DNA of 64,000 bases from Sialis fuliginosa (Eukaryota; Arthropoda; Insecta; Megaloptera; Sialidae). Where the stretch lies: positions 32,934,267 through 32,998,266 of the forward strand of contig OY540809.1 in assembly GCA_961205875.1 (NCBI GenBank), given 5' to 3'. A program made the translations under genes and the position numbers. Of the stretch, positions 30,425 to 64,000 are shown piece by piece. The notes below the pieces were generated by a model, which worked only from the letters and a program-made list of their open reading frames with translations, did not search any database and was not told where the DNA came from. Each line of letters starts with the position of its first letter. Within the stretch, counting starts at the first letter, position 1.

Positions 30425-31407
30425 GAGAAAATAATTTTTCGTATTATTTTCAATTTTACTTGACTTTCGATGCTATTATGAAAATTTTATATATAATATT
30501 TATGAAATATCATATATTTGTGCGTATAATAAGACCAAAAACATCAAGATTAGTATAATTGTAAAGGATAGATTGTTAATATTCTTAAGTCCCACATTTA
30601 GTCCAGTAACTTTGTCGCCTGAATTTATGGGGTAGTATGCGTTAAATCCGGTAGTTCTGATTTTTTGCAGACTTGTTTATGATGTTGGCCTAATGAATAA
30701 TCCAAGTTTGTGACCTCGAGCGCCGAACGCAACTTTGTCAAAAATCGAAAAAACCGCGAAAAAATCGTTATTTTTTCAAATTTTGGCGATTATAACCCTA
30801 AAGGACTAGTTTTTGAAAAAACTTTTTTAGAACGTTCTTAAAGTAGACTAAATTTGCTACAAAATGATACTAGAATTGTCTCTGTAGACCCAATAGTTTC
30901 CGAGATTAAGCCTTTCGAAGTTTATCATTTTTTTCGAACTTCGTAATTTTTTGCAATATTTTAGACGTCACTCGAATAACTCTAGCGGGATGAAGTTCCA
31001 ATTACCTCCGACGGAGTGTGCTAGTATTGCTCGTGTGAAGTCACGAATTGGAACCTAGCAGCTGGTCCCCAGTGCTCCGCCATCTTGTCTATTTTGCTAC
31101 CTTACCGTGGTTACAGAGACAGCATTAAATATAGAGTTGATCATTCCAGGATCTCTTCTAGTGAGTCGTTCACAATTATCTCTGATAATGAAAACATGTC
31201 AACATTGTCGTCACGTAATATTAGATTAAGATTAAATAAACTGTTAAAGTTTTAATTTTTGTCTTCTTAGATAAACTTAGAATTTAATTTATTATTATTG
31301 GCATACACTATTTATTATTATTATTATTAAATAGTTATAATACAACAGAACATTTAAAATATTATATGGTATGGTGATGAACTATAAAGGCAAAATTTCA
31401 TGCCTAA

Positions 31408-32444
31408 GTACTCCAAGCAGAGGAAGATGCTGATAGGCTCATCATCACTACAGCTGTAACTGCTGCCTCTACCTATGATATAGTGGTAGTCATTGGTGAG
31501 GACATTGACTTGCTGATCATCCTTACTGCGATCTCAAACCAACGTGAATTTTTTTACAATAAATGTGGAAGAGGCAAAGCATCAGATGTCATGTATTCCA
31601 GCATCGCTTCTTCAAAATCCTCTTTGAAACCAGAGCTTTTCCTCTTCATCCATGGTTGTGACTCGACATCCTGCTTCTTTGGCTTAGGGAAGATGCAAAT
31701 GATGTCCATAGTCGAAAAAAATCCGGACGTTGAAAAGCAAGCTGCGATTCTTCTCGATATCAACGCTACACCTGACGAGATAGCAGCAGCAGGAGAGCGA
31801 GTCATAATTGCTCTATACGGAGGCAACCCCAACACCCATAACTTTGACGAGCTGCGGTACCAACTATTCACCAGGGATGCGACGAAAACCAGCTTCAATC
31901 TAGCCAGGTTACCTCCTACACGAGACTCTGCTCGATTTCACTCCTTGCGGACATACCATCAGGTAAAAATTTGTCCTTGCATCAATTACATATCATTCAT
32001 AATTTTCTATTCTCATGTACAATCTTCTTAAAGGTACAGGCGTGGTTGGGAGTCACACTGAACCCTCTCTCCTGGGGGTGGATATCCACGCCACAAGGCC
32101 TCAACCCCAAAATGATGACCAGAGATGCAGCCCCACAACACCCCTTGCGGATGATTTCTTGTGGCTGCACGAAGGGTTGTGGGAACCCGTGCAGCTGCAG
32201 GAAGGCAGGATTAAAATGCTCATCAGTCTGCAGGCACTGCAGCGGAGCCTCTTGTGACAATATACCTGATGTTACAGAAGTAGATATCCCAGAAGGCGAC
32301 GATCTGTCCGATGTCGAAATGGAGGATGACTTGTGGGCACAAGACGTCGACGATTCATCACCATCCCCTGATGGGGATATGCCACCCCAATACGTCCAGA
32401 TACGGACGAACCTCAACCGGGACCTTTCAAGAGGGCTAAATTAA
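31408..32444 (+). pseudogene. C-terminal exons of a transposon-borne protein with a CXC (tesmin/TSO1-like) domain
   Basis: Open coding runs from about 31408 to 31962, then a 71-nt intron (GT at 31963, AG at 32032-32033; an alternative AG at 32038-32039 is also in phase), then 32034-32444. It opens with VLQAEEDAD, then VVIGEDIDLLIIL and FLFIHGCDSTSCFFGLGK, a pattern recalling nuclease-like Asp clusters. The second exon has a cysteine cluster CGCTKGCGNPCSCRKAGLK followed by CSSVCRHCSG, the spacing of CXC DNA-binding domains. An acidic tail ends at TAA 32442-32444. The frame has no stop, but there is no start: 31483 is a GTG and TAA at 31405-31407 precedes. I infer it is the 3' end of the gene type begun at 61969; the two pieces do not overlap, so this rests on my recollection of the family architecture. 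It may still be transcribed. Confidence 0.7.
31963..32033 (+). other. Intron of the CXC gene fragment
   Basis: Donor CAG|GTAAAAAT, pyrimidine-rich 3' part, acceptor TTCTTAAAG. Removing it joins two frames in phase 0. Its survival shows that this copy moved as DNA, not through a spliced RNA. Confidence 0.8.
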
Positions 32445-32484
32445 TTTAATTTTTTGATTTTGAATATTACTCAATTTCCTAACA

Positions 32485-32490
32485 AATAAA
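32485..32490 (+). terminator. Polyadenylation signal after the CXC exon
   Basis: AATAAA lies 41 nt after the stop codon and before the right TIR. Confidence 0.6.
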
Positions 32491-34800
32491 CTTATTAACT
32501 TTTGTTGTACTTATCTTTTTTACTTCATTATTCGTAGCTTAGCTTAAACATCATCGTTCACACTTCTCATTTTCTTTTTTAACATCCCATCATAAAAGTA
32601 CAGGGCTTCGATAATATAATCAGGGTCAAAATTCATTCAGAACGACAGAATTGCAAAAAATTGCGAAGTTCGAAAAAAATGATAAACTTCGAAAGGCTTA
32701 ATCTCGGAAACTATTGGGTCTACAGAGACAATTCTAGTATCATATTGTAGCAAATTTAGTCTACTTTAAAAACGTTCTAAAAAAGTTTCTTCAAAAACTA
32801 GTCCTTTAGGGTTATAATCGCCAAAATTTGAAAAAATAACGATTTTTTGCGGTTTTTTCGATTTTTGACAAAGTTGCGTTCGGCGCTCGAGGTCACAAAC
32901 TTGGATTATTCATTAGGCCAACATCATAAACAAGTCTGCAAAAAATCAGAACTACCGGATTTAACGCATGCGGTGATGTATAAAGTTACTGGACTAATTA
33001 GTGTATATCAGAACAAGATATCTTCCTACTACAGAATTGATGTAAAATGTTCAAATTATTATGATATTCCATTAAAAATAACTTCAACACCATTAAATAG
33101 ATATTTGATGTTTTGAGAGACGGTTTAAGGGGAAATCTCGGCTCGGGTGTTTCTGTGAAAAATTGACCCATTTACTGTAAATATATGCAATTTTTACATA
33201 CTAAGTTCTTAATTTCTAGTCGAAAAACATATTTTGTTCAATTTTCACAGAGAAATACCATGCAAAAATAGAGAAGCGCAAAATGGAAATTAAAAACGAT
33301 TCATTACTTCATTAATAGAAATGCAGACATCGTAATTATTTCATATTCTTACATATTTTGTTCATTTACCTTAATTTTGTATCATACATTTTTAATAACT
33401 AAGGATTTTATATTAATTATCTGAATATAATAACCCCAATCATTACATATTAATGTCATAAGGCCGTCAAGTCTTCATTGATGTTTTAAAAATACAGTTC
33501 AAAAATTGTAATATTTCCGTAAAATAGTTCTTGTTTAATAAATAGTAAGTACATAAAAAAAATCTATTTTAGTTCAAAAAGTCAAAAATTGCATTAATCT
33601 CATTTGGAATGAGAAAAAGAAAATAATTTGATATCACTCTTATTCAATCTTATTATTATTCTAATGTACTAAAGAAATCATATTCTGTTATTATTTGAAT
33701 GATAACCGCGTATATCTTGTACAATATAATTATTTTAAGTTGTCTTAAATGTCATAATTGTTAATGTGTTTGGCAACTGAAGACCATTTACTTACTTTAG
33801 GATTACTTTACTTACATAGGATTGGCATTATGGAGATTCACGCAAGCTTCGAAGTATCATCTCAAAATTATTTTAAGTCCTTAGCAATGAAAAATTTATA
33901 AGATGCAAAATAAAGATAATATAATTAAACAAAATATGTAAGAATATGAAATAATTACGATGCCTGCAGAAATGCAGAAAATATTAACAAACATGAACTT
34001 ATTTTAAAGAAAATTTTATGCTCTACAAAAAAAGTCCTTTACGCCGTATTTGCAAAATTCACTGTTTCAGAGAAAAACGCGAAAAACTATGAAAAAATGT
34101 AACCCGTCCGCCATTTTTTCAATATGGCGGCGGTAGCACAATTCGGATCAGCTCGGACCTTTTGTGGGATGATCAGGGACACTAGTAGAACGTTTTCACC
34201 AAAAATAATTTTGGTCCGAATTAGTTCCGGGTAAAAGTCTTATGGACTATAGTTCGCAGCGGCAATGTAATTTATTTGTTACTACTAAAGACGATTCTAA
34301 AAATTTCGAAACTATTTGGGGCGATTTAATTTTAAAAAGCAGCCTATGAGGAAAATATTATTTAAATTGATTCAATGGTACAGTTGCCATACTTTCCCGG
34401 CTACAGCCTCTATATTTTATCTTTGTCAGGCCATGGGCCCTATCAAAATTCCAGTATCCGTCCGGGCTAGTTCAATCCTGTTTAGCAACAAATTAAAGGT
34501 ATTTTAAAAGTATTAAGAGTCCGCTCGCACCACGCCCGATACGACCGTATGTGAATTTATACGAGTATTGAGTATGTTATACCATTTTGTTGTTTGGGTA
34601 TACAGGGTATATTTTATGATAAAATAGTGATTGCCTTTCTAGAACTACATGGTGTTTTTTATTTTTAAAATTTTATTAATATTTTTTCTGGTTTACTATA
34701 TACAGAAGATCATAATAATACCTCTTATAAGTCATAAGTAGTATCATAGAGTCATCAAGGTATCATATACTACAAGCGCCATCAAATTCAATTGACGGAT

Positions 34801-39343: not shown

Positions 39344-39756
39344 TACAGTGTATTCCAAGTTGATTAAGCCATAGGAAATTTAACATGGGGACAATTAGAA
39401 ATGTTGTAGTAGCCTTTGGTCAAATTTAACGATGTGTGATTGGTGCATTTTGAAATGCCGCCTCGGAACTATCTGATACATTTTAAATTAATCAACAGTA
39501 TTTTGTTTTCAACTTTAGTAAAGAATAAAATACATTAATGAAATTAAAGTAAGCATCCTAGATAAAATTATAATAATATTTTTTGGCAGATATAAAATTA
39601 AAAATAAAATACTAATGACAATTTTACTAAATTTTGTGGCGGCATTTCAAAATACACCAATCACACATCGTTAAATTCGATCAAAGGTTACTACAACACT
39701 TCTAATTGTCCCCGTGTTAAATTTCCTATGGCTTAATCAACTTGGAATATACTGTA
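39344..39756. mobile_element. 413-bp TA-type palindromic MITE
   Basis: Ends TACAGTGTATTCCAAGTTGA and its near inverse. Arms of about 125 bp pair almost fully, with a loop of about 150 bp of simple AT sequence. Flanked by TA. Confidence 0.85.
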
Positions 39757-39771
39757 TATATAGTTATTATA

Positions 39772-41528: not shown

Positions 41529-41539
41529 TAATTGTTGTA

Positions 41540-44259
41540 TGGTGGGGCATTTAAAGTGTTACAGTTGATTATCTCAAAACCATCGCATATTTGAAAAAAA
41601 TATTTCAATCAAAAAATGTTTGGTTGTAAGGGGGTAATCGAATAGTAATATTTATTTGCTATTTTAACGTAACCTTCAAGGATATTTGAAGGTCAACATC
41701 ATTTTTTTAAATAGGAACCTATAGTTTTTATTTACTTATCTTATTTTACGTGAAAAAATACGATCTTTCATTGAAAACTTTTTTTTGAACAACCCAAGCT
41801 TTCCAAGGTATCTAACAAAATAATTCGAGATTTTGAATTTTCAAGAATTTTTTACTCAGAAACCATAAACTTTAGAAAAAAAGTATAAGATACAAAAAAT
41901 GTTTATTTTGGTCTAATGAAACTTGGAAAATTATTCTAGATTTTTTTTAACATTTCGTACTTTTTTTGTTTTTGCTAAAGGGTCATTCTTAGTCAACTCT
42001 ATCAGAGAAAAACGCTACTTTTACGGATTTTCATAATATTCACATATGTTGTTAAGCTTGTTCAAAAAATATAAGCTTCAATCATCATTTCGCAAAATTT
42101 TGCGGTTTTTGAAAATTACACGTATTTTAATTTTTGAAGAGATGACGCATATGCATTTAAATAATAATTTTTATCTCCGGATGTACTTATCGTAGCGAAA
42201 TGATTTTTTTTAGTTTTGTTCACAAAAGAACGGTCTTTTTGGACATATTGTCCGTTTTTAAGTAAAACAAAAATTTAAATTATTTTTTGTAAAATCATTT
42301 TTTTTTTTGAAATTTGAAGATGTGGTCGGGTGTTTAAAAATCTGAAAAAAATCACAAATATTGCTTATAGTATTCTCTATCATCCCTGCAATTTTTAAGG
42401 TGGACATATTTATAACGGCTTCAAAAAAAATAATTTAAGATTGCTATATAGAGGTCACGCGCACTATACATTGATGTGCCGTAATGAATTCGAATGTAAA
42501 TGTTAAAATATTGTTATTTGTGTGTAATCTATAGAATTAGTAAATAGATTTAGAAATAAAGTAATCATACAGTGGGTTTCAAACTGTTTGTTTCACATAT
42601 CCACAAAGGTATACATATATACATATATACATACATTTCAACTGATTTTTATTTCTGTTTCTTTTCAGAATCTAAAAAGTTGACTATCATATACATATCG
42701 CAAGATTATCACTTTAAAAACGACTCATATAATTAATTTTAATTAATAAATACGAATAAACCAAAAAAATTAAATTAAATTTGGGAGTTTGGATGGATTT
42801 TTTAAAATTTTAAGAAAATATAATTTACTTAAAAGTTTTTCTATTAACCCTCTCTCAACATAACATATTGATCACGTTAAACTCAGTTATAAGAAATGTT
42901 TTTTTTTAAACAATTAGAATACACGAATCATTAATATAAAAAGTGGATGTTGGTGGATAATTTTATAATATTGCTCTGTTTTATCCCTGAATATTAAATA
43001 GATCAAATTAGTTTTAATTGAAATGAAGGGTTCTATGCGTATTTTTTGGCTAACAATAATTGAAACAGCTTCTAAAGTGACCACATGTCATTTTCAGAGA
43101 TAATAACTAACACAAGAGACGATATAATTAATTTTAAAGGTTTTTTTAATACGATAACATTCTTAATTTTAAGAATTTTTGAGAATTTACATACATTAAT
43201 TCTGAATTTAAATACCTTATTAGATATGTGAAACAGTTTGAAACCCACTGTATGATTACTTTATTTCTAAATCTATTTACTAATTCTATAGATTACACAC
43301 AAATAACAATAATTTTAACATTTACATTCGAATTCATTACGGCACATCAATGTATAGTGCGCGTGACCTCTATATAGCAATCTTAAATTATTTTTTTTGA
43401 AGCCGTTATAAATATGTCCACCTTAAAAATTGCAGGGATGATAGAGATATTTGTGATTTTTTTCAGATTTTTAAACACCCGACCACATCTTCAAATTTCA
43501 AAAAAAAAAATGATTTTACAAAAAATAATTTAAATTTTTGTTTTACTTAAAAACGGACAAAATGTCCAAAAAGACCGTTCTTTTGTGAACAAAACTAAAA
43601 AAAATCATTTCGCTACGATAAGTACATCCGGAGATAAAAATTATTATTTAAATGCATTCTCTTCAAAAATTAAAATACGTGTAATTTTCAAAAAACGCAA
43701 AATTTTGCGAAATGATGAATGAAGCTTATATTTTTTGAGCAAGATTAACAACATATGTGAATATTATGAAAATCCGTAAAAGTAGCGTTTTTCTCTGATA
43801 GAGTTGACTAAGAATGACCCTAAAATAAAATAAATAGAAAAAGTTTTTAAATTTTTTTAAATAATTCTCCACGCTTTATTAGACCAAAATAAATATTTTG
43901 TGTATCCTGTACTTTTTTTCGAAAGTTTGTGGTTTCTGAGTAAAAAATTCTTGACAGTTCAAAATCTCGAAATATTTTGTTAGATACCTTGGAATGAATG
44001 GGTTGTTCAAAAAAAAGTTTTCAATGAAAGATTCGTGTTTTTTCAAGTAGAATAAGATTACTTAATAAAAACTATAGGTTTCTATTTAAAAAAAATGATG
44101 TTGACCTTCAAATATCCTTGAAGGCCACGTTAAAATAGCAAATAAATATTACTATTCGAATACCCCCTTACAACCAAACATTTTTTGGTCGAAACAATTT
44201 TTTGAAATATGCGATGGTTCTGAGATAATCATCAGTAACACTTTAAATGCCCCACCCTG
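41540..44259. mobile_element. G2: copy of G split by a second palindrome
   Basis: Ends GGTGGGGCATTTAAAG and CCCCACCCTG as in G1. G1 is 855 bp; G2 is 2.7 kb because 41980-43820 is inserted in it. Confidence 0.85.
41980..43820. mobile_element. GGGTCATTC-ended foldback, TSD TAAA
   Basis: Starts GGGTCATTCTTAGTCAAC and ends with the inverse. Flanked by TAAA at 41976-41979 and 43821-43824. G1 around 17105-17115, read inverted, has the single-copy site TTTGCTAAAATAAAAT. Arms pair over about 600 bp, down to TACAGTGGGTTTCAAACTG at 42567 and its inverse at 43255. The middle 600 bp are unpaired and have no frame. Confidence 0.85.
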
Positions 44260-44272
44260 TATATAGTTATTA

Positions 44273-45160
44273 TATAGTTTCGCCATGTCTGTCCATCCGT
44301 CCGTCCTCAAAAATTTTAGACCGATTAAGATGAAATTTGGTATACGGACGAAGACTGAAAACCCAAAAACAGAAATGAAAACATTTTTTTGACCCCCTTT
44401 TCATAGACTGAAAAGAATATTCAAAAAATATTTTTCACTTAATCCATTAAGTGGGGTGTCTTTAGATAGGTCTCCTAAAATGCAATAAAAAATGTTAAAT
44501 GACCTTTTGATTTTAATGCTTCAGTAACGATATATTTGCGTTCAAAGTCGTGCTTAGAGCGTCCCCTCCCCCCTAATTTCTAAACTATCAATTCAAAGAA
44601 TCTGAAAAAAATTCAGAATGTAGCTTTTAATTAGTACTTTCACTGAAAATTATAACGAACACTGTCAAAAAAATTTTGGACCCCCCTCCCATAGACTGAA
44701 AAGTGAAGTCACATTTTTTTCACTTATCCCATTGATTGGGGTGTCATTAGATAGGTCTCTTAAAATGAAATAAAAAATGTAAAATGATCTTTTGATTTTA
44801 ACCCTTCAGTCACGATATATTTGCATTTAAATGTCGATATCAGAGCGTCCTCCCCCCCCCCCCTAATTTCTAGACTATCAATTCAAAAAATCTGAAAAAA
44901 ATTTAGAATATAGCTTTTAATTAGTACTTTCACTGAACATTATAACGAACACTGTCAAAATAATTTTGGACCCCCCTCCCATAGACTGAAAAGTGAACTC
45001 ACATTTTTTTTTTCACTTATCCCATTGATTGGGGTGTCACATTGTAGCTGGAATAGTTTATAAAAAAATTTGAAATAACTCTTGTTTATAAATCGTAATG
45101 ATTACGGAAACCTACCATGTGCGTGCCCAACACGCACTTGGCCGTTTTTGTTTGTTAATG
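44273..45160 (+). repeat. Repeat related in layout to E, with about 290-bp units
   Basis: Begins near CTGTCCATCCGTCCGTCC and ends near GTGCGTGCCCAACACGCACTTGGCCG. Between lie about 2.3 units containing CCCATAGACTGAAAAG, GATTGGGGTGTC, a run of C, and CTATCAATTCAAAAAATCTG. The order of motifs (C-run, then TCAAAAAATCTGAAAAAAAT) parallels E, though most bases differ. Confidence 0.65.
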
Positions 45161-45401
45161 ATGTAACTTTAGTATAAGGAGTTTGTAAACGACATACAGC
45201 TAATTTGTATCTAGTAGACACATTGCGACTATTTACGTAATGTAGTAGATGTAATAATATAATGTTCACAATGTAGCCAATGTGAAAAACATCTTTGCTT
45301 AGAGTCCTAGAGCTGGGCTGGCCAAACGAATGTTCTTCTAATAAAAATTAATGGAAGATTAATAAAAATAAATATTACTAAATTAAACTGATTATAATCT
45401 C
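45161..45401. other. Spacer
   Basis: No feature seen. Confidence 0.4.
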
Positions 45402-46881
45402 AGATTGTCCGTCCGTCCGTCCATCCTTTTCACTCAAAGCAAAATATCTCGTAAACTATACAGTGCGTTCATGATGAAAGGAACAAATTCGCTTGAAATT
45501 CAGGTAATTATTTTGTGCAAAAACGCTCGTACACATCGATTAGTATTTTTACTTGCGGATTTTTTGACATAAGAAAATTGAATACAGGGTTATATTTCAA
45601 ATGGAACACCCTATATATTATACCATTTTTGAATTGTACGATGTATTCTGAATACTTTTTGTACAACATACCATATCTCTAAAATCAGTGGTTTTCGGAA
45701 TAATTACGTTTGAAAATTGACATTTTGAAATACACACGTAAGTCAAATAAAATGTTTAAATTGAACATTTTTTTAAAAGCTAACAAAAACATCCTGTTAT
45801 GGCATAAAAATATTGAACTTTTTTTCTGTTTTTTTTTCTTTTTTTTGTAATACCAGGTTGTTTTTGTTGACTTAAAAAAAAGTTCAAGGTGTATTTGTTC
45901 AATTTAAACATTTTATTTGACTTGTGTCAATTGTATCAATTTTCAAACATCATTATTCCTAAAACCGCTATAAGCGTATAAGCTAGAAACTTGAAATTTT
46001 TACTGATTATGTAAAATAATGTACTCTAGTTAAAGTTGTACAAATGTTGAAAAAATAATTTTATAGGAGGGGCACTAAGGAGTTAAAGCTAGATAAAAAA
46101 TATCTTTTTTTTATACCAATTTTATATCTGCAAGCGCCATTTGATTTAGAAAAAAATAAGAAAGAGGGTCAAATTCCGCTGATTTGGTTATAAATTTTAA
46201 TGTGGCACGTTAAAATGGCGCTTGCAGGGGGCTTTAAATTGTATACCAAGGCGTGTGGGGTGTCGAAATTTAAATGTAGAATATGAAGATATTTTTTTAT
46301 TTATTTCCTAAAAATGACGCCTGTAGGAAGCTTCAAGTAGGATTTTATCCCCCCCCCCTTTTAACTCGGCAACTACCGGCTGAAAAGAATTGAAAAAAAT
46401 TTTGTAACAAGGCTTTGGTTGGACAAATCTAAAGTCAACAATATTATTTTAAATATTGGAACAGGGAGGGGCGTCATAAAAAAATATTTTTATTTTCATA
46501 TCTAGGCATGTGGGGTGTCGAAATGTTGATTTCAATTAGTAGAATATGATCATATTTTTTATTTATTTTCTAACAGGTACCTGCGGGGGGCTCCAAGCAG
46601 TAATTTATTTATTTTCCCTCTCTATGTAGCTCGGTAATCTGAAAAAATATTGATAACGAGACTATCTACCAACGACAAATACTAAAGTCAAAAATATAAT
46701 TTAAAATTTTGGAGAAATAGAGAGGGGCGTCATAGATTTTTTATTTTTATTTTCATATCTAGGCACATGGGATGTCAAAATATAGATCTCAATTAGTAGA
46801 ATATGACCATTTTTTTCTAACTCAAAAATGGCGCCTGTAGGGGGCTCCAAACAGTCCACGTAGTACGACTTCGGAACCCTT
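45402..46881 (+). mobile_element. E2: copy of element E with an insertion
   Basis: GTCCGTCCGTCCATCC start and CGGAACCC end as in E1. Two 278-bp-type units lie at about 46230-46850. A foreign block (about 45461-45977) interrupts ATATCTCGTAAACTATA, which is continuous in E1. It contains its own inverted repeat (GTCAAATAAAATGTTTAAATT and inverse near 45910). Confidence 0.6.
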
Positions 46882-47265
46882 ACGACATACACTGTATGTC
46901 TTAATCGAACTATTTTTATTTTTTGTTATTCTGTTGCAATAATAATTATTTTTGTTATTAAAAACTTTTTAATAAAATACTTTAAAACAATGTAGAATAA
47001 CTTATTTTTGACCCTATTCCTCAAAATCAATATTTAAAAAAAATTTTTTTTGTCTTCTAGTTCCTTTTTTTGTAAGCTTGGTTTTTAACTAATGTATCTT
47101 TGCAATCTATGGGGTACACTGCACCAATGAGGTACCTTAACGTATTGGAGGTTAAAAATAGATAAACAAACAATCGAGTTTCATTTTTATGTTTACATTT
47201 GCCTAAATTAATAAAGTCAGCAGTATACAAAAATAATTCGGGCAAGACATACACGAGTGTATATA
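46882..47265. other. Spacer between inverted E2 and E3
   Basis: E2 and E3 face each other across these 384 bp, and GACATACACTGTATG-like words occur at both edges. It may be the loop of a compound foldback. No gene. Confidence 0.45.
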
Positions 47266-48452
47266 AGGGTTCCGAAGTGAGTACTACGTGAAATGGTTGG
47301 AACCACTTACAGATGCATTTTTAATTTAGAAAAAAACATATAAAAGTGTCAAGTTCTACTAATTGAGATCTATATTTTGACAACCCACTTGCCTAGATAT
47401 CAAAATAAAAAATTCTATGACGCCTCTCCCTATAATTCCAAAATTTAAAATTATATTGTTGATTTTAATATTTGTCGTTGGTAGTCCCACCAAAGCCTCA
47501 TTACCAAATTTTTTTCAGATTTTTTGAGCCAGTAGTTACAGAGTTAGGGGGGGGGGGGGGCAGAATAAAACATTGCTTTTAGCCCCCTACAGACGACATT
47601 TTTGAGTTAGAAAAAAAATAAAAAATATGGTCATATTCTACTAATTGAGATGTACATTTTGACATACCACATGCCTAGATATGAAAATAAAAATTTAAAA
47701 TTCTATTACACCCCTCCCTATTATTCCAAAATTTAAAATTAAATTGTTGAGTTTAGTATTTGTCGTTGGTAGTCCCACCAATACCTTGTTACCAAATTAT
47801 TTTCAGATTTTTTGAGCCGGTAGTTACAGAGTTAGAGGGGGGGGGACAAAATAAAATACTGCTTTTAGCCCCCTACAGGCGACATTTTTGAGTTAGAAAA
47901 AAAAAATATGGTCATATTCTACTAATTGAGATGTACATTTTTAGATACCACATGCCTAGATATGAAAATACAAATTTAAAATTCTATTACACCCCTCCCT
48001 ATTATTCCAAAATTTAAAATTAAATTGTTGACTTTAGTATTTGTCGTTGGTAGTCCCAACAATACCTCGTTACCAAATTATTTTCAGATTTTTTGAGCCG
48101 GTAGTTACAGAGTTAGAGGGGGGGGGGGAATAAAATACTGCTTTTAGCCCCCTACAGGCATCATTTTTTATTTAGAAAAAAAAATAGAAAAAGGGTCAAA
48201 TTCCGCTTGTTTGGTTATACATTTTAACGTGCCACATGCATTGGTATAAAAAAAATATTTTTTTTAACTACCTGAAAAATTATTTATTCAATAAATTTGT
48301 ACATATTTAACTAGAGGGTGTCGTTTTACATGTTCAGTAAAAATTTCATGTTTCTAGCTTATATAGTTTACGAGCTATTTAGCTTTGAGTGAAATGGACG
48401 GACGGACGGACGGACGACAAAGTGAGATTAATAGGGTTTCTTCGGAACCCTA
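47266..48452 (-). mobile_element. E3: copy of element E, inverted
   Basis: Ends with GGACGGACGGACGGACGAC and CGGAACCCTA. Three tandem 278-bp-type units have G-runs (minus-strand C-runs) of differing length. Very close to E1 in its outer 200 bp. Confidence 0.75.
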
Positions 48453-49230: not shown

Positions 49231-50084
49231 TTCTCTTTTAACATAGTTAAATTGATAAAAATCAGTCCCTTTTTAAGTATTATTTCATGTTATAAATTTA
49301 TATTGTTATCAAAAACATCGTTTTATTTAGCATAAACTTGTAACTCCCGTTTCAATGGCCTCGCACTTTGGTGAATTTAGCACGAGGAAGTTGTTGGTAG
49401 ATTTTTTTTACAATGGTATTTTTGGTCATGAAAGTAATAGTCCAGCCAATGAAGCAGAAAAAATGGTCAAATGGGAAATTTTCCGGAACAGCAATTTTAT
49501 GGTTGATTCTTATAGATTTTGAGCCGCTGAACACGAAAAAAATAACGCGCCCGCGTGAGGAGTGGGGCTTCACCTCTAAAAATGGGGTAAAAAAGTGAAT
49601 ATCAAGTTTTTTTATCGTTTTTTCGATTTATTTCAAAAACTAAATCTACGATGGGGTTATATTATGGTTGAAATGAAATGAATCAATTAAGACCAGTTAG
49701 ATAAAATTTAACCAAAAAACACCTTTTCCAGAGGGTGAAAATGCCGTAAAATTGTTAATTTTCGGTCCTAATCAGTAAAAATTGAATAACTCTGGGGCAC
49801 ATCATCGCAGAGACTCGTATATTGGCTTAAATTCTTCCTAAAACTCCAAAGAATTGAGATCAACCATAAGATAACCAAATATGAATAGATTTACCAATGA
49901 TATTTGCCAATATTTAAGGGTGTGTCACAAAATATTTGTAAAAATTTGTGTTGCACTAAAAACCAAGTAAAAAAATCAGGAATCAATATTTTTTTACAAA
50001 ATTGCACTTGCAGCTTCTATTTATACCTACGATCAAGGCTGCATAAGAAAAAAAGTTTTTCATGCACATAAATGCATTTAAAAG

Positions 50085-51550
50085 CTGGCCCCCACTGGTG
50101 TTATCAAATTGGCTGTATCTTAAGCCTAGCTCACACGACGATAGATTTGCCACTGGATTGCTTGCTTGATTTTGTAACTGGGTTCCAAGCGAGCTGTCGC
50201 GCTGGGTGTTGTGATGGTTTCTATGCGATGTTTGCTGCACACGATGCAGGGTCGCTAGATGGCTCCGATACGTGCAAAATTACAGTTTAGAAAAATGGAC
50301 GCGGTTGCATTAGAAGTAATTCGTCGTAGACGATTAGTAATAAGCGTGTTTTAAAAAAGAAAAAAAAGTTCATCAAAAATAGAGCAGGGGACATAACAGT
50401 GCAGATTTTGGTAACAAATTTTATGAAAATAAAAATAAAAAGAATAAAATAAAAATAAAATAGATAAGATAAAATAAAAAGGGGTCTTCATTTACATCTC
50501 AGGGTTTACCAAAACTAAAATCTGGTCACCCTATTTGTAATGGTTATTATTATGAAATATAACCAAATAAATTTTGTAATCAAATAAATAAATTAATTTA
50601 CAATTTCGGCTTGTTGATTTGACATTATTTTTTTATACTTTGGCACCAAAATACTATTCTGAAAAGATATTCGAATATTCAAACGTCAAATTATATGTTA
50701 GGTATTATGAATATCAAACAAAATTCCGTGGAATAATAGCTATGCTTACTAATAATAATTCTATACTATAGTTATTGCATTATAATAATCATCATTAATA
50801 TCACAGAACATATTAATATTAATAATAAAATTTATGAAATGTTTTTACATATGTATCTATCGTTGATCCTGATACAGCCACCTTAAAACTACCACCGGTC
50901 GTAAAAAACACGTGCGGCGTTTCTATTGGTTAACATAAAATCTAGCAACAAATCTATTACGAAAAATAGGACATGAACTATTACAGAATTCTACCTAGCG
51001 TCCACGTAAGGCAGCCAGTAGTAACGTCATTTTCCATTACAGTAACCATCGTAGTGGCAAATCTATCGTCGTGTGAGCTAGGCTTTAGCTCCTAGTTACC
51101 CGATTTCAATTTTCTTTTGTTTATTATAAAGTTCTTATTGAGAAGAATTTTTTGGATAATATTTATTGTTCTCTAAACATCGAGAGTTCCCCACAACTTT
51201 AGAAAATCTAAAAATTTCACTTTTTTCGAATATTTTTGCTGATTAAATTATTTTTGAAAATTGTGGGCAACCCTCAACACTAAGAGAAAAATAAATAGTA
51301 TCAAAAAAAATCTTATTAATAAGAACTTTACAATAAACAAAAGAAAATTGAAATCGGATAACTAGGATCTGAGATACAGCCACTTTGATAACACCGGTGG
51401 GGGCCATCTTTGACAGCCACCATTTTGTGTCCTGCAGGGATTTTCATGTAGCTACCTATCTAAAAATTTCCCTTTTGACTCTATCTATGACCATTGAATG
51501 TGGCATATTCCAATCAAAAAGTGTATCGCTATTTTACGTACAAGTCGTAC
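50085..51550. mobile_element. B2: copy of palindrome B, interrupted
   Basis: Matches B1 at GGGGGCCATCTTT, GCTGTATCT...AGCTCCTAGTTACCCGATTTC and the right end GTAC|TA. The left terminus is missing. Split by 50123-51085. Confidence 0.7.
50123..51085. mobile_element. 963-bp TIR element, TSD TTA
   Basis: The first 31 bp, AGCCTAGCTCACACGACGAT onward, are perfectly inverted at the right end. Flanked by TTA at 50120-50122 and 51086-51088. B1 at about 24315 has the site without it. A TWA duplication fits PIF/Harbinger-type MITEs. No frame. Confidence 0.85.
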
Positions 51551-52224
51551 TATAGCTATTTATTACGTTTTCTTACATTTTATTATGAAAAATGCATTTT
51601 GTGAATTTTTATGAGTTGATAAGGGTGAATATAAAAGTGTTAGGTTGTTATGAATCAATATACGCACATTAAATAAATTTTTATAGTTTATTTCTCGAAA
51701 ATACCTTTTTTAATTTTTTACGACAAAATGCGGTTTGATGCATTTTGATATGTATTTTAAATGCATTTATGTGCATAAAAAACTTTTTTTCTTACGCAAC
51801 CTTGATCGTAGGTATTGATATGCCCCTCCCTCACCGGACAATGAAATTTCGTCCGCCACGCTCTGAAGAATCTTTCCAGCTGTCGAATGACACCTCACCG
51901 ACGATTCTAGCTCAAACGGATCGCCGGCAAAACCCAACACTAGGGTAAACCGCCATCCGAACGCCAACACGTCAGTCCATCCTTTCTTAATGAAAGGGAG
52001 AAGGGTGAAGTTGCGAGTTGGCTCTCACCAACGAAGCGCAACCGTGGGTTGTATAAAGCCTCCCGATTTTGATGCAAAAGTAAGAAGTCCAGAAGTGAAC
52101 TCGAAGTCAACTCCAGGGACAAGTGCCTTATCTACCACTGCTGCCGAGTTTAATACTTGGCAGCAGAGGTGCTCTGAGATGCCACTCCAGTGTCGCTGAT
52201 TGACGACCACTGACACCACCACCT

Positions 52225-52510
52225 CACGTTGAGGACCACTGCCGCCACCGAAGGAGACGCCCACCGTCTGACGTTGACGACCACTGCCGCCCGCCGAAGG
52301 AGACGTCCACCACCGGACGTTTGAGGACCACTGCCGACTCCCGGAGACGCCCACCACCTCACGTTTGAGGACCACTGCCGCCCGACGAAGGAGACGCCAC
52401 CGCCTCACGTTGAGGACCACTGCCGACCGCCGAAGGAGACGCCATCGCCTCACGATGAGGACCACTGCCGCCCGCCGAAGGACGCCGCCGTCACCTCACG
52501 TTGAGGACCG
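52225..52510. repeat. GC-rich tandem array, about 45-46-bp units
   Basis: GAGGACCACTGCCG recurs at 52231, 52276, 52323, 52367, 52412, 52457 and 52503, each followed by a CCGAAGGAGACGCC word. About six units. Confidence 0.85.
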
Positions 52511-52854
52511 CTGACGCTCACCAGAGACGCCCGCTGCAGCTGTGACGCCCAAATTCACAGGCACGCACCCGAAGACAAGCGCCGTCTCCGGATCCGACAA
52601 GAACTCTGACCGCTGACGCCCGAAGAAGAACGTCGCCCGCTGAAGTCCGCCAAGAGACGTCCGTCGCCGCTGTGACACCCAAATACACAGACGCGCACCG
52701 GAAGCCGAGCGCCGTCTCACGACCAGAGACCACTGACGCTCCGAGAAGAACGCCGCCCGCCGAGAAACGTTCACCGCCACTGTGATGCCAAACTCACAGA
52801 CGCGCACCGGAAGCCGAGCGCCGTCTCACGACTAGACATAGCTTCCACCGAGAA

Positions 52855-53275
52855 GCCCGCCGTCATCTTCATGACGCCAACACAGCTTTCAGCGCGAAGC
52901 CCGCCGTCATCTTCATGACGCCAACACAGCTTTCACCGCAAAGCCCGCCGTCATCTTCATGACACCCAACACAGCTTCCACCGAGAAGCCCGCCGTCATC
53001 TTCATGACGCCCAACACAGCTTCCACCGAGAAGCCCGCCGTCATCTTCATGACGCCCAGCACAGCTTCCACCGAGGAGCCCACCGTCATATTCATGATGC
53101 CCAGCACAGCTTTCACCGCAAAGCCCGCCGTCATCTTCATGACGACCAGCACAGCTTCCACCGCGAAGCCCGCCATCATCTTCATGACGCCCAGCACAGC
53201 TTCCACCGAGAAGCCCGCCGTCATCCCAAATGACACCCAATCCAGCTTCCACCGAGAGGCCCACCATCACACGAA
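52855..53275. repeat. 45-bp tandem array
   Basis: About nine units of GCCCGCCGTCATCTTCATGA plus CGCCCAACACAGCTTCCACC. The 45-nt unit is 15 codons, so frames on both strands stay open, giving a repeating MTPNTASTEKPAVIF on the plus strand. A translated product is not supported. Confidence 0.9.
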
Positions 53276-54093
53276 TGACGTCTGCCCCATTGACATCTGA
53301 AGGATCGCACCGGCCCAGCTGATCCCAACATCAGCCCAGCCGATTCCAACGACACTGGAATCCCCGTCGATCCCCGTCAAGACAGAAAAGACGCCCCCCC
53401 CCCTTCCATTGTTAAATAACTGTATATTTTGTATGTAAATATTAACGACGAAATAAATATTCCTTCCTAAGCCAACATTGTTTTTATTTCCCGCTATAAA
53501 ACACAAACGCGGGGTACAATAGAAGATACAAGTGCAATTTTATAAAAAAAATATTGATTCCTGATTTTTTTACTTGGTTTTTAGTGCAACACAAATTTTT
53601 ACAAATATTTTGTGAGACACCCTTAAATATTGGCTAATATCATTGGTAAATCTATTCATATTTGGCTATATTATGGTTGATCTCAATTCTTTGGAGCTTT
53701 AGGAAGAATTTAAGCCAATATACGAGTCTGTGCGACGATGTGCCCCAGAGTTATTCAATTTTTACTGATTAGGACCGAAAATTAACAATTTTACGGCATT
53801 TTCACCCTCTGGAAGGGGTGTTTTTTGGTTAAATTTTATCTAACTGGTCTTAATTGATTCATTTCATTTCAACCATAATATAACCCCATCGTAGATTTAG
53901 TTTTTGAAATAAATCGAAAAAACGATAAAAAAACTTGATATTCACTTTTTTACCCCATTTTTAGAGTTGAAGCCCCACTCCTCACGCGGGCGCGTTATTT
54001 TTTTCGTGTTCAGCGGCTCAAAATCTATAAGAATCAACCATAAAATTGCTGTTCCGGAAAATTTCCCATCAAATTGCTTCATTCACTGGACTA

Positions 54094-54539
54094 TAATACT
54101 GATACTCTGTTCACATAACTGATATATTCCAATAATAACAAAAACATTCATTAAAATTTCTCGTAAAACAAAGACCCTCGCCACGTCTGACTGTACTGTG
54201 TCTGTCTGTGCATGATTTTCTCAGTAAAAGGATATTATTCCGGTTTTCACTAATGGATAGAGTGTTTCACGAGGGGGGTTAAGATGCACAATTTGTAGAT
54301 ATTTTGTGTGAATTTCATGCAATCGGAAAAAAATTGTCGGATATCTTTACGTAAATAGTTAACGATAAGTGAAAACAATGTTTAATAGGTTTATTACAGA
54401 TTAAAATTATATCCCCCAGGTAACACCGGGTTTAATGCTCTAGTTAATAACTAAATGTCACCGTTAATTCTTTTTTACAAAAAAATTGTAAATATAATGA
54501 ATAATAACGGCGAAATGCACGATCATGATAGGTTCCGTA
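54094..54539. other. Spacer between T4 and the old copia
   Basis: No feature recognised; the outer edge of the copia LTR may lie somewhere inside. Confidence 0.35.
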
Positions 54540-54901: not shown

Positions 54902-54959
54902 ATGACCATGAACTTAGCGAAGCACCTATTGCTAATCAAAACGAAATTAGGTGGATTAT

Positions 54960-57190
54960 TTGTTGCTAATTAGTTACGCTGATTTTGATTTTGTTGCTCA
55001 ATTTTTTCTTTAAATAGCTTCAGACAAATCAGAACACGGCTGAGAATTTGTTGCTAATTAGTTGCTAATTAGTTACGCTGATTTTGATTTTGTTGCTCAA
55101 TTTTTTCTTTATTTTTTGGGGTTTTTCGCTAAGTTCATATGAACTTAGCGGAGCACCTCCCTTAAATAAGCTTCAGGCGAATCAGAACACGGCTGAAAAT
55201 TTGTTGCTAATTAGTTATGCTGATTTTGATTTTGTTGCTCAATTTTTTTTTTTTTTGGGGTTTTTCGCTAAGTTTATATGCAGTTTGCGAAGCACTCCCC
55301 CTTAAATTAGCTTCAGACGAATTAAAACACAGCTGAGAATTTGTTGCTAATTAGTTACACTGATTTTGATTTTGTTGCTCAATTTTTTCTGTATTTTTTT
55401 GGGTTTTTCGCTAAGTTTATCTGCATTTTGCGAAGAACTCCCCTTTAAATTAGCTTCAGACGAATTAGAACAGAGCTGAGAATTTGTTGCTAATTAGTTA
55501 CGCTGATTTTGATTTTATTGCTCAATTTTTTCATTATTTTTTGGGTTCTTCGCTAAGTTCATATGAACTAATATTCATAATACAATTAAACTAATATTTA
55601 TAATACCAAGGCGAGTTTTATTTCTGACCAATTCCATTTAAATTTTTCATATTCATATTAAAAAAATATTCACATAAACTATAACCTGATTTTGATTTTG
55701 TTGCTCAATTTTTACTGTATTTTTTGGGGTTTTTCGCTAAGTTAATATGCAGTTTGCGAAGAACTCCCCCTTAAAATTGCTTCAGACGAATCAGACCACG
55801 GTTGAGAATTTGTTGCTAATTAGTTGCTAATTAGTTACGCTGATTTTGATTTTGTTGCTCAATTTTTTCTTTATTTTTTTGGGTTCTTCGCTAAGTTCAT
55901 ATGAACTTAGCGAAGCACCCCCCTTAAATTAGCTTCAGACGAATCAGAACACAGCTGAGATTTTGTTGCTAATTACAAAAAAAAAAATTGCCGTAAGTAA
56001 AATTTTTCGATGCGCTTGTGCATGTCGATTTTTTTAACATTAAAACATATTATTGTTATTGTATATACCTGTATGTACTGTTAGACATGATAAAGCTAAT
56101 TTAAGGGGGAGTACTTCGCAAACTGCATATAAACTTAGCGAAGCACCCAAAACAATAAAAACAAGCTTGGTGTGGGGTCAGTGGCGTATTTACCATGGGG
56201 CCATGGTCTAGGGCGGCAGGCTGAGAGGGGCGGCAGATTTATTTAGTTTCTTTTAGTTTAATACAGAATATTAAAAACAATAGGAAGACAAAAAATTAGT
56301 AGTGAAAAAAAAGGTCCCCAGTTTTTAATTTTTATTATATTTTGTTCTACAGCGCTTATAAAAACAGTTATCACTTTTATCAAAAATTAATTATATTTTC
56401 TCTTGGTACAGGGGCGGAAATTTTTTTTTGCCCAGGGCGGCACTTAAGGTAAATACGCCACTGGGTGGGGTGAAACCCTTTAGGTCCACACAATCAACTT
56501 CCCAACACAGTATGATTATAAATATTTGAATACTGATTATTTATTGTTTCCGTATAGTTTATGTGAATATTTTTTTAATATGAATATGAAAAATTTAAAT
56601 AGAATTGGTCAGAAATAAAACTCACCTTGGTATTATAAATATTAGTTTAATTGTATTATGAATATTAGTTCATATGAACTTAGCGAAGAACCCAAAAAAT
56701 AATGAAAAAATTGAGCAATAAAATCAAAATCAGTGTAACTAATTAGCAACAAATTCTCAGCTCTGTTCTAATTCGTCTGAAGCTAATTTAAAGGGGAGTT
56801 CTTCGCAAACTGCATATAAACTTAGCGAAAAACCCAAAAAAAATACAGAAAAAATTGAGCAACAAAATCAAAATCAGTGTAACTAATTAGCAACAAATTC
56901 TCAGCTGTGTTTTAATTCGTCTGAAGCTAATTTAAGGGGGAGTGCTTCGCAAACTGCATATAAACTTAGCGAAAAACCCAAAAAAAAAAAAAAATTGAGC
57001 AACATAATCAAAATCAGCATAACTAATTAGCAACTAATTAACAACAAATTTTCAGCTGTGTTCTGATTCGCCTGAAGCTTATTTAAGGGAGGTGCTCCGC
57101 TAAGTTCATATGAACTTAGCGAAGCACCTAAAAAAATAAAGAAAAAATTGAGCAACAAAATCAAAATCAGCGTAACTAATTAGCAACAAA
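54960..57190. repeat. Mirrored tandem array of about 142-bp units
   Basis: GATTTTGATTTTGTTGCTC recurs at about 54979, 55079, 55221, 55361, 55506, 55680 and 55846, and inverted from about 56710 to 57170. Spacing 100-174, mostly 140-145. Each unit includes the hairpin AAGTTCATATGAACTT. Confidence 0.8.
56179..56463. mobile_element. 285-bp hAT-type MITE
   Basis: Ends CAGTGGCGTATTTACC and its inverse. Flanks TGTGGGGT (56171-56178) and GGTGGGGT (56464-56471), 7 of 8 alike. Inner GGGCGGCA words on both sides. Confidence 0.88.
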
Positions 57191-57247
57191 TAATCCACCT
57201 AATTTCGTTTTGATTAGCAATAGGTGCTTCGCTAAGTTCATGGTCAT

Positions 57248-60327: not shown

Positions 60328-61189
60328 TTATTTTCCTATGTTTGAATCGATAAGTAATGTTCTCGCTTTGTCTAATAATGTTATATTCATTCTTTCTGCT
60401 ACTCCATTCATTTCTGGATTATAAGCTACTGTATATTGCAATCGTATCCCATTTTCTTCACAAAATTTCTGAAATTCACCCGTAACATATTCTCTACCAT
60501 TGTCTGACCTTAATTTTAACATGTTCGTATTAAAATGTCTTGTTGCATAAAAATAAAACTTTTTAAATTTTTCAAAAACTTCTGACTTATGTCTTATTAA
60601 ATACGTTATTACAAAGTGTGTGCAATCATCTATGAATGTGACAAAATAGTTTTTCCCATCCCACGTTTCAGGAGTGATTGGTCCACAAACATCAGTATGG
60701 ATTAATTCTAGTGGCTTTGTTGCCCTATACCCTTTTTTATTAAATGGTTGTCTTATCATTTTGCCTAAAATACAAGATTCACATAACTCATTTTCTAATT
60801 TTTTATTTTCAATTTCTTTCATACCATCAACCAAATCTTTTTGTACTAATAATTTTATGTTATTTAAACTTAAATGTCCATATCTTATATGCCACAAATC
60901 TACTACTTTATTTTCATCATTTGATAAATAGTTACAGTTTGGTACTTCGCTAAATGTATCCACAATAAATAAACTACCCTCTTTATTTTCTATCATTGTT
61001 AACATATTATTTTTAAACACTCTTACTTTGCCACAGACAAATTCCACTAGCCTCTATTCTGGATACTGACATTAAATTTTTTCGTAATTCAGGTACATAG
61101 TACACATTTGTTATTGTAAAATAATGTTTTCTATTTCCTATCAAATTATATAATCTTAAATTTCCTATACCTATCGCCTTAAGGACTAT
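60328..61189 (-). pseudogene. Protease tail and integrase core of the old copia
   Basis: 61189-61013 holds the pre-integrase segment ending in YVPELRKNLMSVS. A frameshift near 61040 leads into 61047-60328 with the integrase zinc region (WHIRYGHL, CESCILGK), first Asp in HTDVCGP, and SDNGREY. The third motif region MNGVAERM is intact. Protease active site and gag are absent. Confidence 0.85.
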
Positions 61190-64000
61190 TAGCCCAGTCA
61201 TATTAGGTAAAAAAAGGGGTCAACCTCGGAATGAAAGATAATAAGCTGCAAATTGGTATGAACCTTTGTTTTGTCATTCTAAATGTTGTCTCAAAAGTCA
61301 CAATCGTTATCGTGTCCGCGTCTCAAGATATTCAAGGTCAAAGGTCACAAAAATCGGTTTTTCGCGAATATCTGGCTTCCTATCGGTTAAATGAGATTTG
61401 CATTTATTATAAAAGTTGTAGACTATAAAATTCCCTACAACTTTTGTTTAAACTTTTTTTTCATACGACCAACCGTTTTGAAGGTAGAGCGCGAAGAGTG
61501 CACATCGTACAGTCATATACGGCCTAATGCAAGGTCAAGCGTGAGTTATGGTTATCAGTACGTTATAAAGTCAATTATTTACTTGGAAATTATAATTATT
61601 AAACAATGCCTATTATTTATGTACTAACTATTAATTATTTATATTTAATTAAAGTAAGTAACTTGATTATTTATATATAATTATTCATATTTAACTATTT
61701 AAGTATAAAATATTATTAATTCTGGATTATATATTTTAGTTTTATTTTAAGTTAACACGACATTATATATCTTTTCTTTAAAACGCGTAAATTTCTCAAT
61801 ACTTATATACCTGGAAATACTTGTCCCTACCCTATGCCCTTTTCTATTCATTGCCGGGACAGATGTTCTATAGTATTCAAGGCCACTCTCTCCACTTTGT
61901 ATGAGTCAAGATTATTCGTTAGTTTGAAATTGTACCGTTGCAACTACGGACGTACGGTTTTAAGAGCTATGGCTGATTTGTGTTTTATATGTGATAAGAA
62001 ACTTTCAGAAGGTGTTTCTGTGAATGTCGTACGTGGTTTACAAACTTTAAAAACTGCAAGTATTGAAAGAAATGATGGACATATAGACTATTTAAATACT
62101 TTAAGTTCTGTAAATGTGCATTCCGAGTGTCGAAAAGTGTACACGAGTAAAAATGTTATTATTGCATCAAAACGACGCACAGATGAGAGTGAACCTTCAA
62201 CGTCAAGTGCACCTCGTAAAAAACGAAATGAAGTCTTTGATTTTGGAAAGTTATGCTTATTTTGTGGCCAAGAAGCTGATGAAATAGCAGAAAAGAAAAA
62301 AAAATTAAAGTATAGACGGACAATAAGTAATGTAAGTACTCTTGCATTCAAAGACAACGTAATTAAGAGAGCAGAAGAACGAAACGATTCCTTAGGAGAA
62401 TTAGTAAAGGAACGTATATATTACGAGTATGATTTGATCGCTGCTGAAGCAAAGTATCATACTATTTGCTATACCAACTTTTTAACCCGAGTACCATCTG
62501 CAGATAAAAAGCCTCGCCAAGATGATCAAGTCACTCAAGCAATGAAGGAGATTTTTTATTATATAGAAAATAATGAAGATTCTCAATTTACTTTGAAAGA
62601 ACTTAAAGATGTCCCTACGGAATACATACCTGACGATAAGACAATTATTACAAAATTACAACAAAAGTATTTAACTGATATAATAATCACAAAAAAAAAT
62701 GGATCATTTACAATTATATCTTTCCGTGATACACAGCTTAACGTATTATCAAAAGCTTGGTACGAAAATAAAAAAAGTACTCCTGTAGAAGAACGTCTAC
62801 GGATTGTAGAAGCTGCTGCGGCTATTATTAGGGAAGACATCAGATCATCTGTAGTTGAAACAAAAACGTATCCACCTCCGAATAAAATGCTAGATTGTAT
62901 TAATGAAGAAATACCAAAAACATTATCACATTTTTTGGAAGAAATGATATTAAAAAATAGAAAAGGACAAGTAGATCATTTAAAAACGAAATGCACATCT
63001 ATTAGCCACGCAATAATGGCTTCGATACGAGAACGTTCATTTTCATCACAGCTACTGTTGGGCCTTTCCGTATTTCTTCACAGAAGATATGGGTCTAAAA
63101 AATTGTTGGATGTTTTATCATCTTTAGGATTTGCTGCATCATATAGTAATACCATACAGTATGAAGTTTCATCAGTTTACCATCCACAACCTCGTATTTT
63201 ACCATCAGAGTCTGGTGCGTTGGTACAATATGTTGGAGACAATGCAGATATTAATGTCAGTACTCTTGACGGTAATAATACTCTTCACGTTATGGGAATG
63301 ATAAAAATAATTACTCCGAAAGATGCTGTAATTTATGATGATCGCATAAAAAAATGTACAACTAAACCGAGTGCAAAAGAGTTAGCAGCAATATCACATG
63401 TATCTCTTTTAGCATATGAAAAGCCAGTTGTACCTGGGTACAGCAAGATTCAAGTCCAAAATCTACATGATGATCAAGTACTGATTGAAAAAAAATTTAA
63501 TGCAGTTGATTTGTTGTGGTTATACGGAAAATGGAAGAATCTTTCACCGTTGCCAGGGTGGAATGGCTATCTTCAACAACTTACGAAAAATAATCAAAAT
63601 TTTTCAACTTCTCAGGTTATATTTCTACCTTTCATTGATCATCCTGCCAGTAATTTAGACACAATTTATACAACTTTACATAGTGCTATAAATATTGCCA
63701 AGTCACATCAACAAAAAACGTGCATAATTACATTTGATCAGCCCCTGTACTCAAAAGCACGTGAAATGGTTGCTGCGTCAGATGCAAACTCAGACTTGTC
63801 TAAAACAGTTGTCAAACTTGGAGGATTTCATATGCTCATGTCTTTTCTTGGATGCATAGGACATGTAATGGACGGTAGTGGTCTCAAGGAAGCTTTAAGT
63901 AAAATATATGCTACAAATTCGGTCGACAAAATGTTGAATGGTCACGCTTATGCAAGAAGTATCAGAGGCCATATATTATTACGACTTGCATTATCAATAA
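61190..64000 (+). mobile_element. Putative autonomous transposon, right part beyond the window
   Basis: Starts TAGCCCAGTCATATTAGG, one mismatch from TAGTCCAG at the first eight bases, immediately where the old copia sequence ends; the preceding TAT could be a 3-bp duplication. 780 bp of non-coding sequence with foldback-like style precede the ORF at 61969. The right end lies outside, so the TIR pair and duplication cannot be verified. Confidence 0.55.
61969..64000 (+). CDS. Large zinc-module protein, candidate transposase (N-terminal 677 residues, open at window end)
   Basis: The first ATG opens a frame that continues 677 codons to the window edge without a stop, in AT-rich DNA, so it is under or recently under selection. 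Two zinc modules come first: C5, C8, H51, C54 and C96, C99, H164, C167. A Lys/Arg/Ser-rich linker with RKKR (about 83-86) may be a nuclear signal. Then come a helical region and GDNADINVSTLDG (Asp424, Asp427, Asp434), TFDQPLY (Asp590), LGGFHMLMSFLG (His621) and GSGLKEAL (Glu641), which could be an RNase H-like D...D...E core; this is inference. The closing NGHAYARSIRGH motif is Arg/His-rich. I recall this architecture from uncharacterised multicopy genes of insects and cnidarians ending in a CXC domain like that at 32160-32260. Product name unknown; no intron is seen here. An alternative is a domesticated or multicopy host gene of nuclear function. Confidence 0.8.
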   Translation, partial: MADLCFICDKKLSEGVSVNVVRGLQTLKTASIERNDGHIDYLNTLSSVNVHSECRKVYTSKNVIIASKRRTDESEPSTSSAPRKKRNEVFDFGKLCLFCGQEADEIAEKKKKLKYRRTISNVSTLAFKDNVIKRAEERNDSLGELVKERIYYEYDLIAAEAKYHTICYTNFLTRVPSADKKPRQDDQVTQAMKEIFYYIENNEDSQFTLKELKDVPTEYIPDDKTIITKLQQKYLTDIIITKKNGSFTIISFRDTQLNVLSKAWYENKKSTPVEERLRIVEAAAAIIREDIRSSVVETKTYPPPNKMLDCINEEIPKTLSHFLEEMILKNRKGQVDHLKTKCTSISHAIMASIRERSFSSQLLLGLSVFLHRRYGSKKLLDVLSSLGFAASYSNTIQYEVSSVYHPQPRILPSESGALVQYVGDNADINVSTLDGNNTLHVMGMIKIITPKDAVIYDDRIKKCTTKPSAKELAAISHVSLLAYEKPVVPGYSKIQVQNLHDDQVLIEKKFNAVDLLWLYGKWKNLSPLPGWNGYLQQLTKNNQNFSTSQVIFLPFIDHPASNLDTIYTTLHSAINIAKSHQQKTCIITFDQPLYSKAREMVAASDANSDLSKTVVKLGGFHMLMSFLGCIGHVMDGSGLKEALSKIYATNSVDKMLNGHAYARSIRGHILLRLALSI

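Follow-up and report, generated by a model that had tools for sequence, protein, structure and literature searches.

A complete and very young DNA transposon, probably of the AcademX kind, in Sialis fuliginosa

The AcademX lineage of DNA transposons is said to go back to Kapitonov and Jurka in 2010 and Kojima in 2020. The Academ nuclease is of the XPG type, and we know of no Academ element that has been tested and found active. According to PMC10045372, duplication length in the superfamily is tied to the encoded nuclease or helicase, with target-site duplications of 3 or 4 bp in AcademX and 9 or 10 bp in AcademH. PMC6327564 reports Academ in all arthropods investigated, and PMC10294476 puts the mean length of curated Academ elements from molluscs, mostly bivalves, at 5,565 bp. 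Here we describe a transposon that begins at position 61190 of a 64,000-nucleotide stretch of the Sialis fuliginosa genome (contig OY540809.1; hereafter the window) and runs past its end. It is a real, complete and very young transposon, very likely of a kind already named. A first-pass annotation of the window had placed the left end of a transposon here, directly in front of a long open reading frame (ORF), and this observation is confirmed: the element is complete and has copies elsewhere in the genome.

The transposon is 5,917 bp long, and its right boundary, at 67106, lies beyond the window edge. Within the window, its boundary features are:

61190..64000, plus strand: left 2.8 kb of the transposon, with boundaries identical in 11 copies
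61187..61189, no strand: left target-site duplication TAT; the right counterpart, 67107-67109, is past the window, and two empty sites have a single TAT
61190..61775, plus strand: left terminal inverted repeat, covering bases 1-586 of the element; 95.9% identity with the inverted bases 5337-5917

Extension past position 64000, a check proposed in the first-pass annotation, revealed both the inverse of TAGCCCAGTCA and the TAT duplication: the right end reads ...TGACTGGGCTA and is followed by TAT. The terminal inverted repeats are ~590 bp long, the identity given above coming from a 590-column alignment of the two ends.

We searched the genome (a 392-Mb assembly of 20 contigs) with the ORF and obtained 67 protein matches (65 of 95 candidates scored), 11 of them at 100% identity to the printed precision and with 1,551 codons of open frame each. 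There are 11 full-length copies of the transposon, on 8 contigs, each of 5,917 bp. Every copy begins with TAGCCCAGTCA and finishes with its inverse, and alignment of the genomic copies, also proposed as a check, shows left and right boundaries common to 11/11. An exact 3-bp duplication flanks each of them (TAT, ATT, TTA, TGT, TAG, TAA, CTA, TTA, ACA, CAG and GTA); when the same flanks were tested at 2 and at 4-8 bp, 0/11 matched. Compared with the window copy, 8 copies differ by one base and 2 by two bases. The difference common to all comparisons, at element base 1510, is found in the window copy alone, and hence the whole set holds just three differences, one each in the window copy, L010 and L019. 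This corresponds to 3 differences in 11 x 5,917 bases, or ~5 in 100,000. At an insect mutation rate near 3e-9 per base and generation, this would make the set about 15,000 generations old, which is no more than a coarse order-of-magnitude estimate.

The window copy is inserted in a Copia-type element. To its left, on the minus strand, are RVT_2 reverse transcriptase, integrase core and GAG-pre-integrase domains; to its right is a gag-like frame, read by eye. The 300-bp left flank has three genome matches, namely the window and two others at 95%. Both of the others (2/2) are empty sites, uninterrupted and with a single TAT where the window has two; they were read in place, with no sequences joined. 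The left 200 bp of the transposon gave 40 matches (40 of 228 candidates scored). Of these, 22 fall at 93-100% and correspond one to one to the left and right ends of the 11 copies; the best of the rest reaches 80%. The 40 scored matches included neither solo ends of the family nor any shortened derivative or older copy. Among the scored matches, the end is thus present above 80% identity in these 11 copies only, unaccompanied by relics or derivatives, and this suggests that the family arrived, or multiplied in a burst, very recently. The picture would be the same if it had come in lately, perhaps from another species, or if a single surviving copy had been revived. That the family entered this lineage recently, probably from another species, and can still move has in our view about an even chance of being correct, since every copy is full-length and near-identical and older or shortened copies are lacking among the scored matches. 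The scanned collections of viral and prokaryotic contigs contained no relatives of the transposon.

The 677-codon ORF of the first-pass annotation is real, starting at ATG 61969 and still open at the window edge; an in-frame upstream ATG at 61834 lengthens this part to 722 codons, and from that first ATG the full ORF encodes 1,525 aa. The true start is probably at residue 46 (ATG 61969), and an ATG stands at the corresponding position in two related loci of the genome, L020 and L030. The next longest ORF in the transposon is of 104 aa. The parts of the protein that lie in the window are:

61834..64000 in the window, plus strand: transposase ORF, first ATG 61834, probable start ATG 61969, stop 66409-66411
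61981..62472, plus strand: N-terminal double Cys/His region, CFICD...HSECRK...CLFCG...YHTICY, residues 50-213, kept in relatives
63238..63249, plus strand: first acidic motif DNAD (D469/D472), candidate first DDD/E residue, invariant in 3/3 aligned sequences
63736..63738, plus strand: D635 (TFDQPLY), candidate second catalytic residue, kept in 3/3 sequences

The candidate third residue, E877 (VIEQ.LMK), is past the window edge and likewise kept in 3/3 sequences. The motifs follow in the order CFICD...HSECRK, CLFCG...YHTICY, DNADINV (from residue 469), TFDQPLY (633), LGGFHMLMS (662) and VIEQSLMK (875); next come YIIDGGFLL (1096), VVVFDGY (1135), QARDDADVL (1208), IIGEDIDLL (1233) and SGCDTTSA (1292), and a C-terminal CXC-type motif starts at 1439. 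The double Cys/His (zinc-finger) region is the probable end-binding domain, and the conserved acidic motifs could form a putative DDD/E centre. Two decayed relatives, L020 (~61% identical, with stops, frameshifts and an insertion of T4, a foldback element described below) and L021 (40-47%, with one frameshift), keep the protein motifs with some substitutions; the cysteines of the CXC motif are lost in L020. For L020, dN is 0.21-0.34, well below dS in 5/5 segments; dS is 1.1-1.8 in four segments and saturated (infinite) in one, so the ratios are rough at such distance. This excess of dS over dN in every segment points, roughly, to past purifying selection on all parts of the protein, the nuclease part included.

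The nuclease part merits closer description. An alignment of four sequences over this region contains eight invariant acidic residues, of which DDAD, GEDID and GCD account for six; the DGG and FDGY motifs are covered by two of the four, plus L020 in a separate comparison. TIGR00305 (PIN family) matches 2/4 sequences, with a best E of 0.0003 that is under the curated cut-off, and PIN_4 (E 0.05) and NYN_YacP (E 0.024) match 1/4 each. Four PHROGs of unknown function match the region at 0.019-0.13, and there was no XPG match in the Pfam scans of the full protein or of the PIN region. We also used hhalign against five FEN-type 5'-nucleases (phage T5 D15, the PolA 5'-nuclease domain and three phage exonucleases). 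DGG, DAD and EDID align with the DG, EAD and D-x-D motifs of these enzymes (P 0.0043, probability 8%); the fourth motif, GD, resembles GCD by eye only. A difference is that the nuclease here is embedded in a transposase, and overall similarity is weak. With moderate confidence, we regard the region as a PIN domain, probably of the FEN/XPG type.

Taken as a whole, the evidence makes it very likely that the element is an autonomous transposon of the AcademX type. The first-pass annotation knew of no named superfamily that fits, but one does: AcademX, given in PMC10045372 as nuclease-encoding Academ with 3- or 4-bp duplications. Duplications of 3 and 4 bp are found here as well, together with a nuclease-like region, and the length of 5.9 kb is close to the mean of 5,565 bp reported for mollusc Academ elements in PMC10294476. 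None of the tested features differs from AcademX, the noteworthy ones here being the 11 near-identical copies and the ~590-bp inverted repeats. AcademH shares the superfamily but has, according to PMC10045372, a 9- or 10-bp duplication and a helicase, in contrast to the 3 bp and the lack of a helicase match seen here. The proposed membership in AcademX draws on architecture and duplication length, Academ having been compared by published description rather than by sequence.

Several results weigh against this assignment and against the enzymatic roles suggested for the protein. The full protein (1,524 aa) matched no Pfam family, helicases included, at E values up to 10, nor any sequence of a solved structure. 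For the 722-aa window part, Pfam matches were at chance level only (DUF4674 0.074, euk_SelB_III 0.1). A profile of the DDD/E region had its best structure match at chance level (0.45), as did the PIN-region profile (0.94). The predicted structure of window 62866-63999 had a mean pLDDT of 38.4 and was discarded, so that an RNase H fold, which the first-pass annotation had proposed to look for, was not obtained. Beside the weak PIN matches stand chance-like ones to DUF3800 (0.47), sunset (0.11), blaNDM (0.24) and PRK06764.1 (0.073). The FEN comparison has low probability and stops before GCD, which was matched by eye. Finally, the reading is drawn from the genome sequence, with no excision footprint, transcript or transposition seen.

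What else might the element be? Membership in another superfamily with 3-bp duplications (Harbinger, CACTA/EnSpm or Zator) or in the CXC-bearing Zisupton/KDZ group appears very improbable. Some of these do share the 3-bp duplication, and Zisupton/KDZ shares the C-terminal CXC-type cysteine motif, but the full protein lacks a Pfam match even at E up to 10, and the ends have the form TAG(C/T)CC(A/G)G. CACTA/EnSpm ends begin with CACT(A/G), and the ends here, TAGCCCAGTCA / TAGTCCAG, do not begin with CACT. Harbinger elements encode a transposase of a type that Pfam recognises, plus a Myb-like protein; this element has one long ORF, the one that was scanned, with no Pfam match, and the next in size is of 104 aa. 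Zisupton/KDZ elements have longer duplications, of 8-9 bp, and other ends. The thought that the ORF is a host gene lying by chance behind a TAGCCCAG sequence can be given practically no weight: it is refuted by the near-identity of 11 copies spread over 8 contigs and by the inverted repeats and duplications that bound every one of them. A more serious alternative, though still an unlikely one, is a cut-and-paste transposon of an as yet unnamed superfamily, resembling Academ just in duplication length and in having a nuclease. In its favor, the transposase part has no usable library or structure match, and the comparison with Academ is one of descriptions; yet a nuclease with a 3-4-bp duplication and no helicase match is the combination published for AcademX (PMC10045372), and Academ is reported from all arthropods investigated in PMC6327564.

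The AcademX-like transposon is not the only element in the window with such ends. The first-pass annotation had proposed a whole transposon group here, and much of it stands: elements with TAG(C/T)CC(A/G)G ends and duplications of 3 bp, among them a copy that looks autonomous and has one long ORF, a deletion derivative with the other end of a related gene, and the T4 foldbacks. TAGTCCAG occurs 7 times in the window versus 0.68 expected, and 0/100 shuffles reached 7. The ends listed at 2201 (inverted), 25988, 30599, 32996, 49438 and 54093 are correctly placed, as is TAGCCCAGTCA at 61190; the "C" end listed at 15749 is actually at 15735 (inverted). A further TAGTCCAGTAC, absent from that list, is found at 38447 and has no partner in 38501-48000. 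The view that 2201, 25988 and 15735 each mark one end of a complete element of this group is not supported, as all three are unpaired. We saw no convincing partner for 2201 in bases 1-2200, for 15735 in 6001-15700, or for 25988 in 26001-36000, where the best candidate is the end at 32996 of another element; for these three ends and the one at 38447, the best partner candidates have 4-6 mismatches. Duplications had been described as 3 bp and A/T-rich. The length is right (ATT/ATT at 30599-32996, TAA/TAA at 49438-54093), but restriction to A/T is not, the group also having CAG, TGT, GTA, ACA, TAC, TCA and GAA.

The deletion derivative, here called the CXC element, has the following features:

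30599..32996, plus strand: CXC element, non-autonomous, 2.4 kb, with TAGTCCAGTAAC ends, a 3-bp duplication and a related protein tail
30596..30598, no strand: left duplication ATT; right counterpart 32997-32999
31414..31968, plus strand: C-terminal part of the PIN-type nuclease region; identity with the protein of the 61190 family 35%
32160..32261, plus strand: CXC motif (CGCTKGCGNPCSCRKAGLKCSSVCRHCSGASCDN)

It had been proposed as a derivative matching the 61190 gene itself. Its encoded nuclease-CXC tail is just 32-35% identical to the 61190 protein, however, so it represents a different family of the group, and we read it as an internal deletion derivative of that related family. The left 200 bp gave 40 matches, all 99-100% identical (40 of 165 candidates scored). 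Six further copies whose ends were read have the duplications TAC, TTA, TCA, TTA, AAA and GAA, making 3 bp the length in 7/7 copies with the window copy included. No autonomous source sharing its ends was identified.

T4 is a foldback element:

49438..54093, no strand: T4, with TAA duplicated at 49435-49437 and 54094-54096 and arms of ~585 bp that are 95% identical

The duplication is of 3 bp in 3/3 complete copies read (TAA in the window, AAA in L020, AAT in L042), and the boundary lies at TAGTCCAG in 12/12 fetched best-scoring loci (40 of 1,035 candidates scored). The window copy contains a GC-rich insert (51801-53400; 50-67% GC versus ~30% around it), in which there are two arrays of 45-bp tandem units, at 52212-52517 and 52836-53269. 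This insert looks like captured genic or foreign repeat sequence.

A subset of the genome protein matches covers only the zinc-finger part, and three such loci were fetched. L031 (851-2739) and L032 (839-2730) are 1.9-kb foldbacks with ~700-bp arms and TAGCCCGGTCAAA ends, in which the loop encodes the zinc-finger part only of an Academ-like protein; their duplications are a 3-bp TAT and a 4-bp AAAT, respectively. L030 also matches residues 273-339 and thus contains more of the gene, which shows that it is not a zinc-finger-only element; its ends were not located. The KP product of P elements provides a repressor-like model for a truncated transposon protein. A similar role for the zinc-finger-only ORF was considered and set aside: between L031 and L030, one pair only, dN (0.048) and dS (0.042) are about equal, and so there is no sign of selection on the zinc-finger protein. 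The CXC element, T4 and the zinc-finger-only elements have end motif and duplication length in common with the AcademX-like transposon, and proteins of this group presumably mobilized them.

As for the decayed relatives, the TAGTCCAG sequences at 649 and 8786 of L020, which flank its coding region, were rejected as its ends, since the inverted repeat extends beyond them and no duplication fits. A search for the ends of L021 found none. Around decayed L020, positions 2-1405, continuing in L036, form a ~1.4-kb inverted duplication that is 99.6% identical.

Several other features of the window and assembly were recorded. A Copia-type retrotransposon occupies window 11617-15421; its two overlapping long ORFs, 540 and 740 codons in length, encode copia-type gag, integrase and RVT_2. 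Other large inverted-repeat structures, for which group membership is not shown, are at 17546-21042, 26168-30424, 39778-41526, 41541-44256 and 54902-57247. An Rfam scan of the window gave 0 matches at gathering scores. The arthropod telomere motif, (TTAGG)n, is common in the assembly: a 30-base pattern occurs 2,420 times forward and 3,473 times in reverse, compared to 0 for the reversed control, and among the matches listed a long run starts ~1.7 kb from the end of contig C1.

How might the AcademX-like element move? The protein would bind the ends of the long inverted repeats, probably via its N-terminal zinc-finger region, with the CXC motif probably adding DNA binding. DNA would then be cut and joined by an RNase H-like DDD/E centre, for which D469 or D472, D635 and E877 are candidates, and the cuts in the two target strands would be staggered by 3 bp, or by 4 bp in one or more related elements. 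Movement would be by cut and paste rather than by copying. The PIN/FEN-like nuclease near the C terminus would most likely trim or cut the other strand or a 5' flap, in excision or gap processing. Alternatively, it may act after excision, in gap repair; the data do not separate these two options.

This transposon is of interest for being young and testable, not for founding a new superfamily. With 11 full-length, near-identical copies, clean duplications and two empty sites, its exact extent is defined, and direct tests can be made of its activity, its excision products and what the nuclease domain does. The genome also holds separate modules of the group, the zinc-finger part and the nuclease-CXC part, in non-autonomous elements that have multiplied. 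Since the scored matches include no older copies, the family is a good subject for a search for horizontal transfer in related arthropods. If it did enter recently and can still move, its two-enzyme protein, with a putative DDD/E centre and a FEN-like nuclease, would be a candidate for revealing what the nuclease does in Academ transposition.

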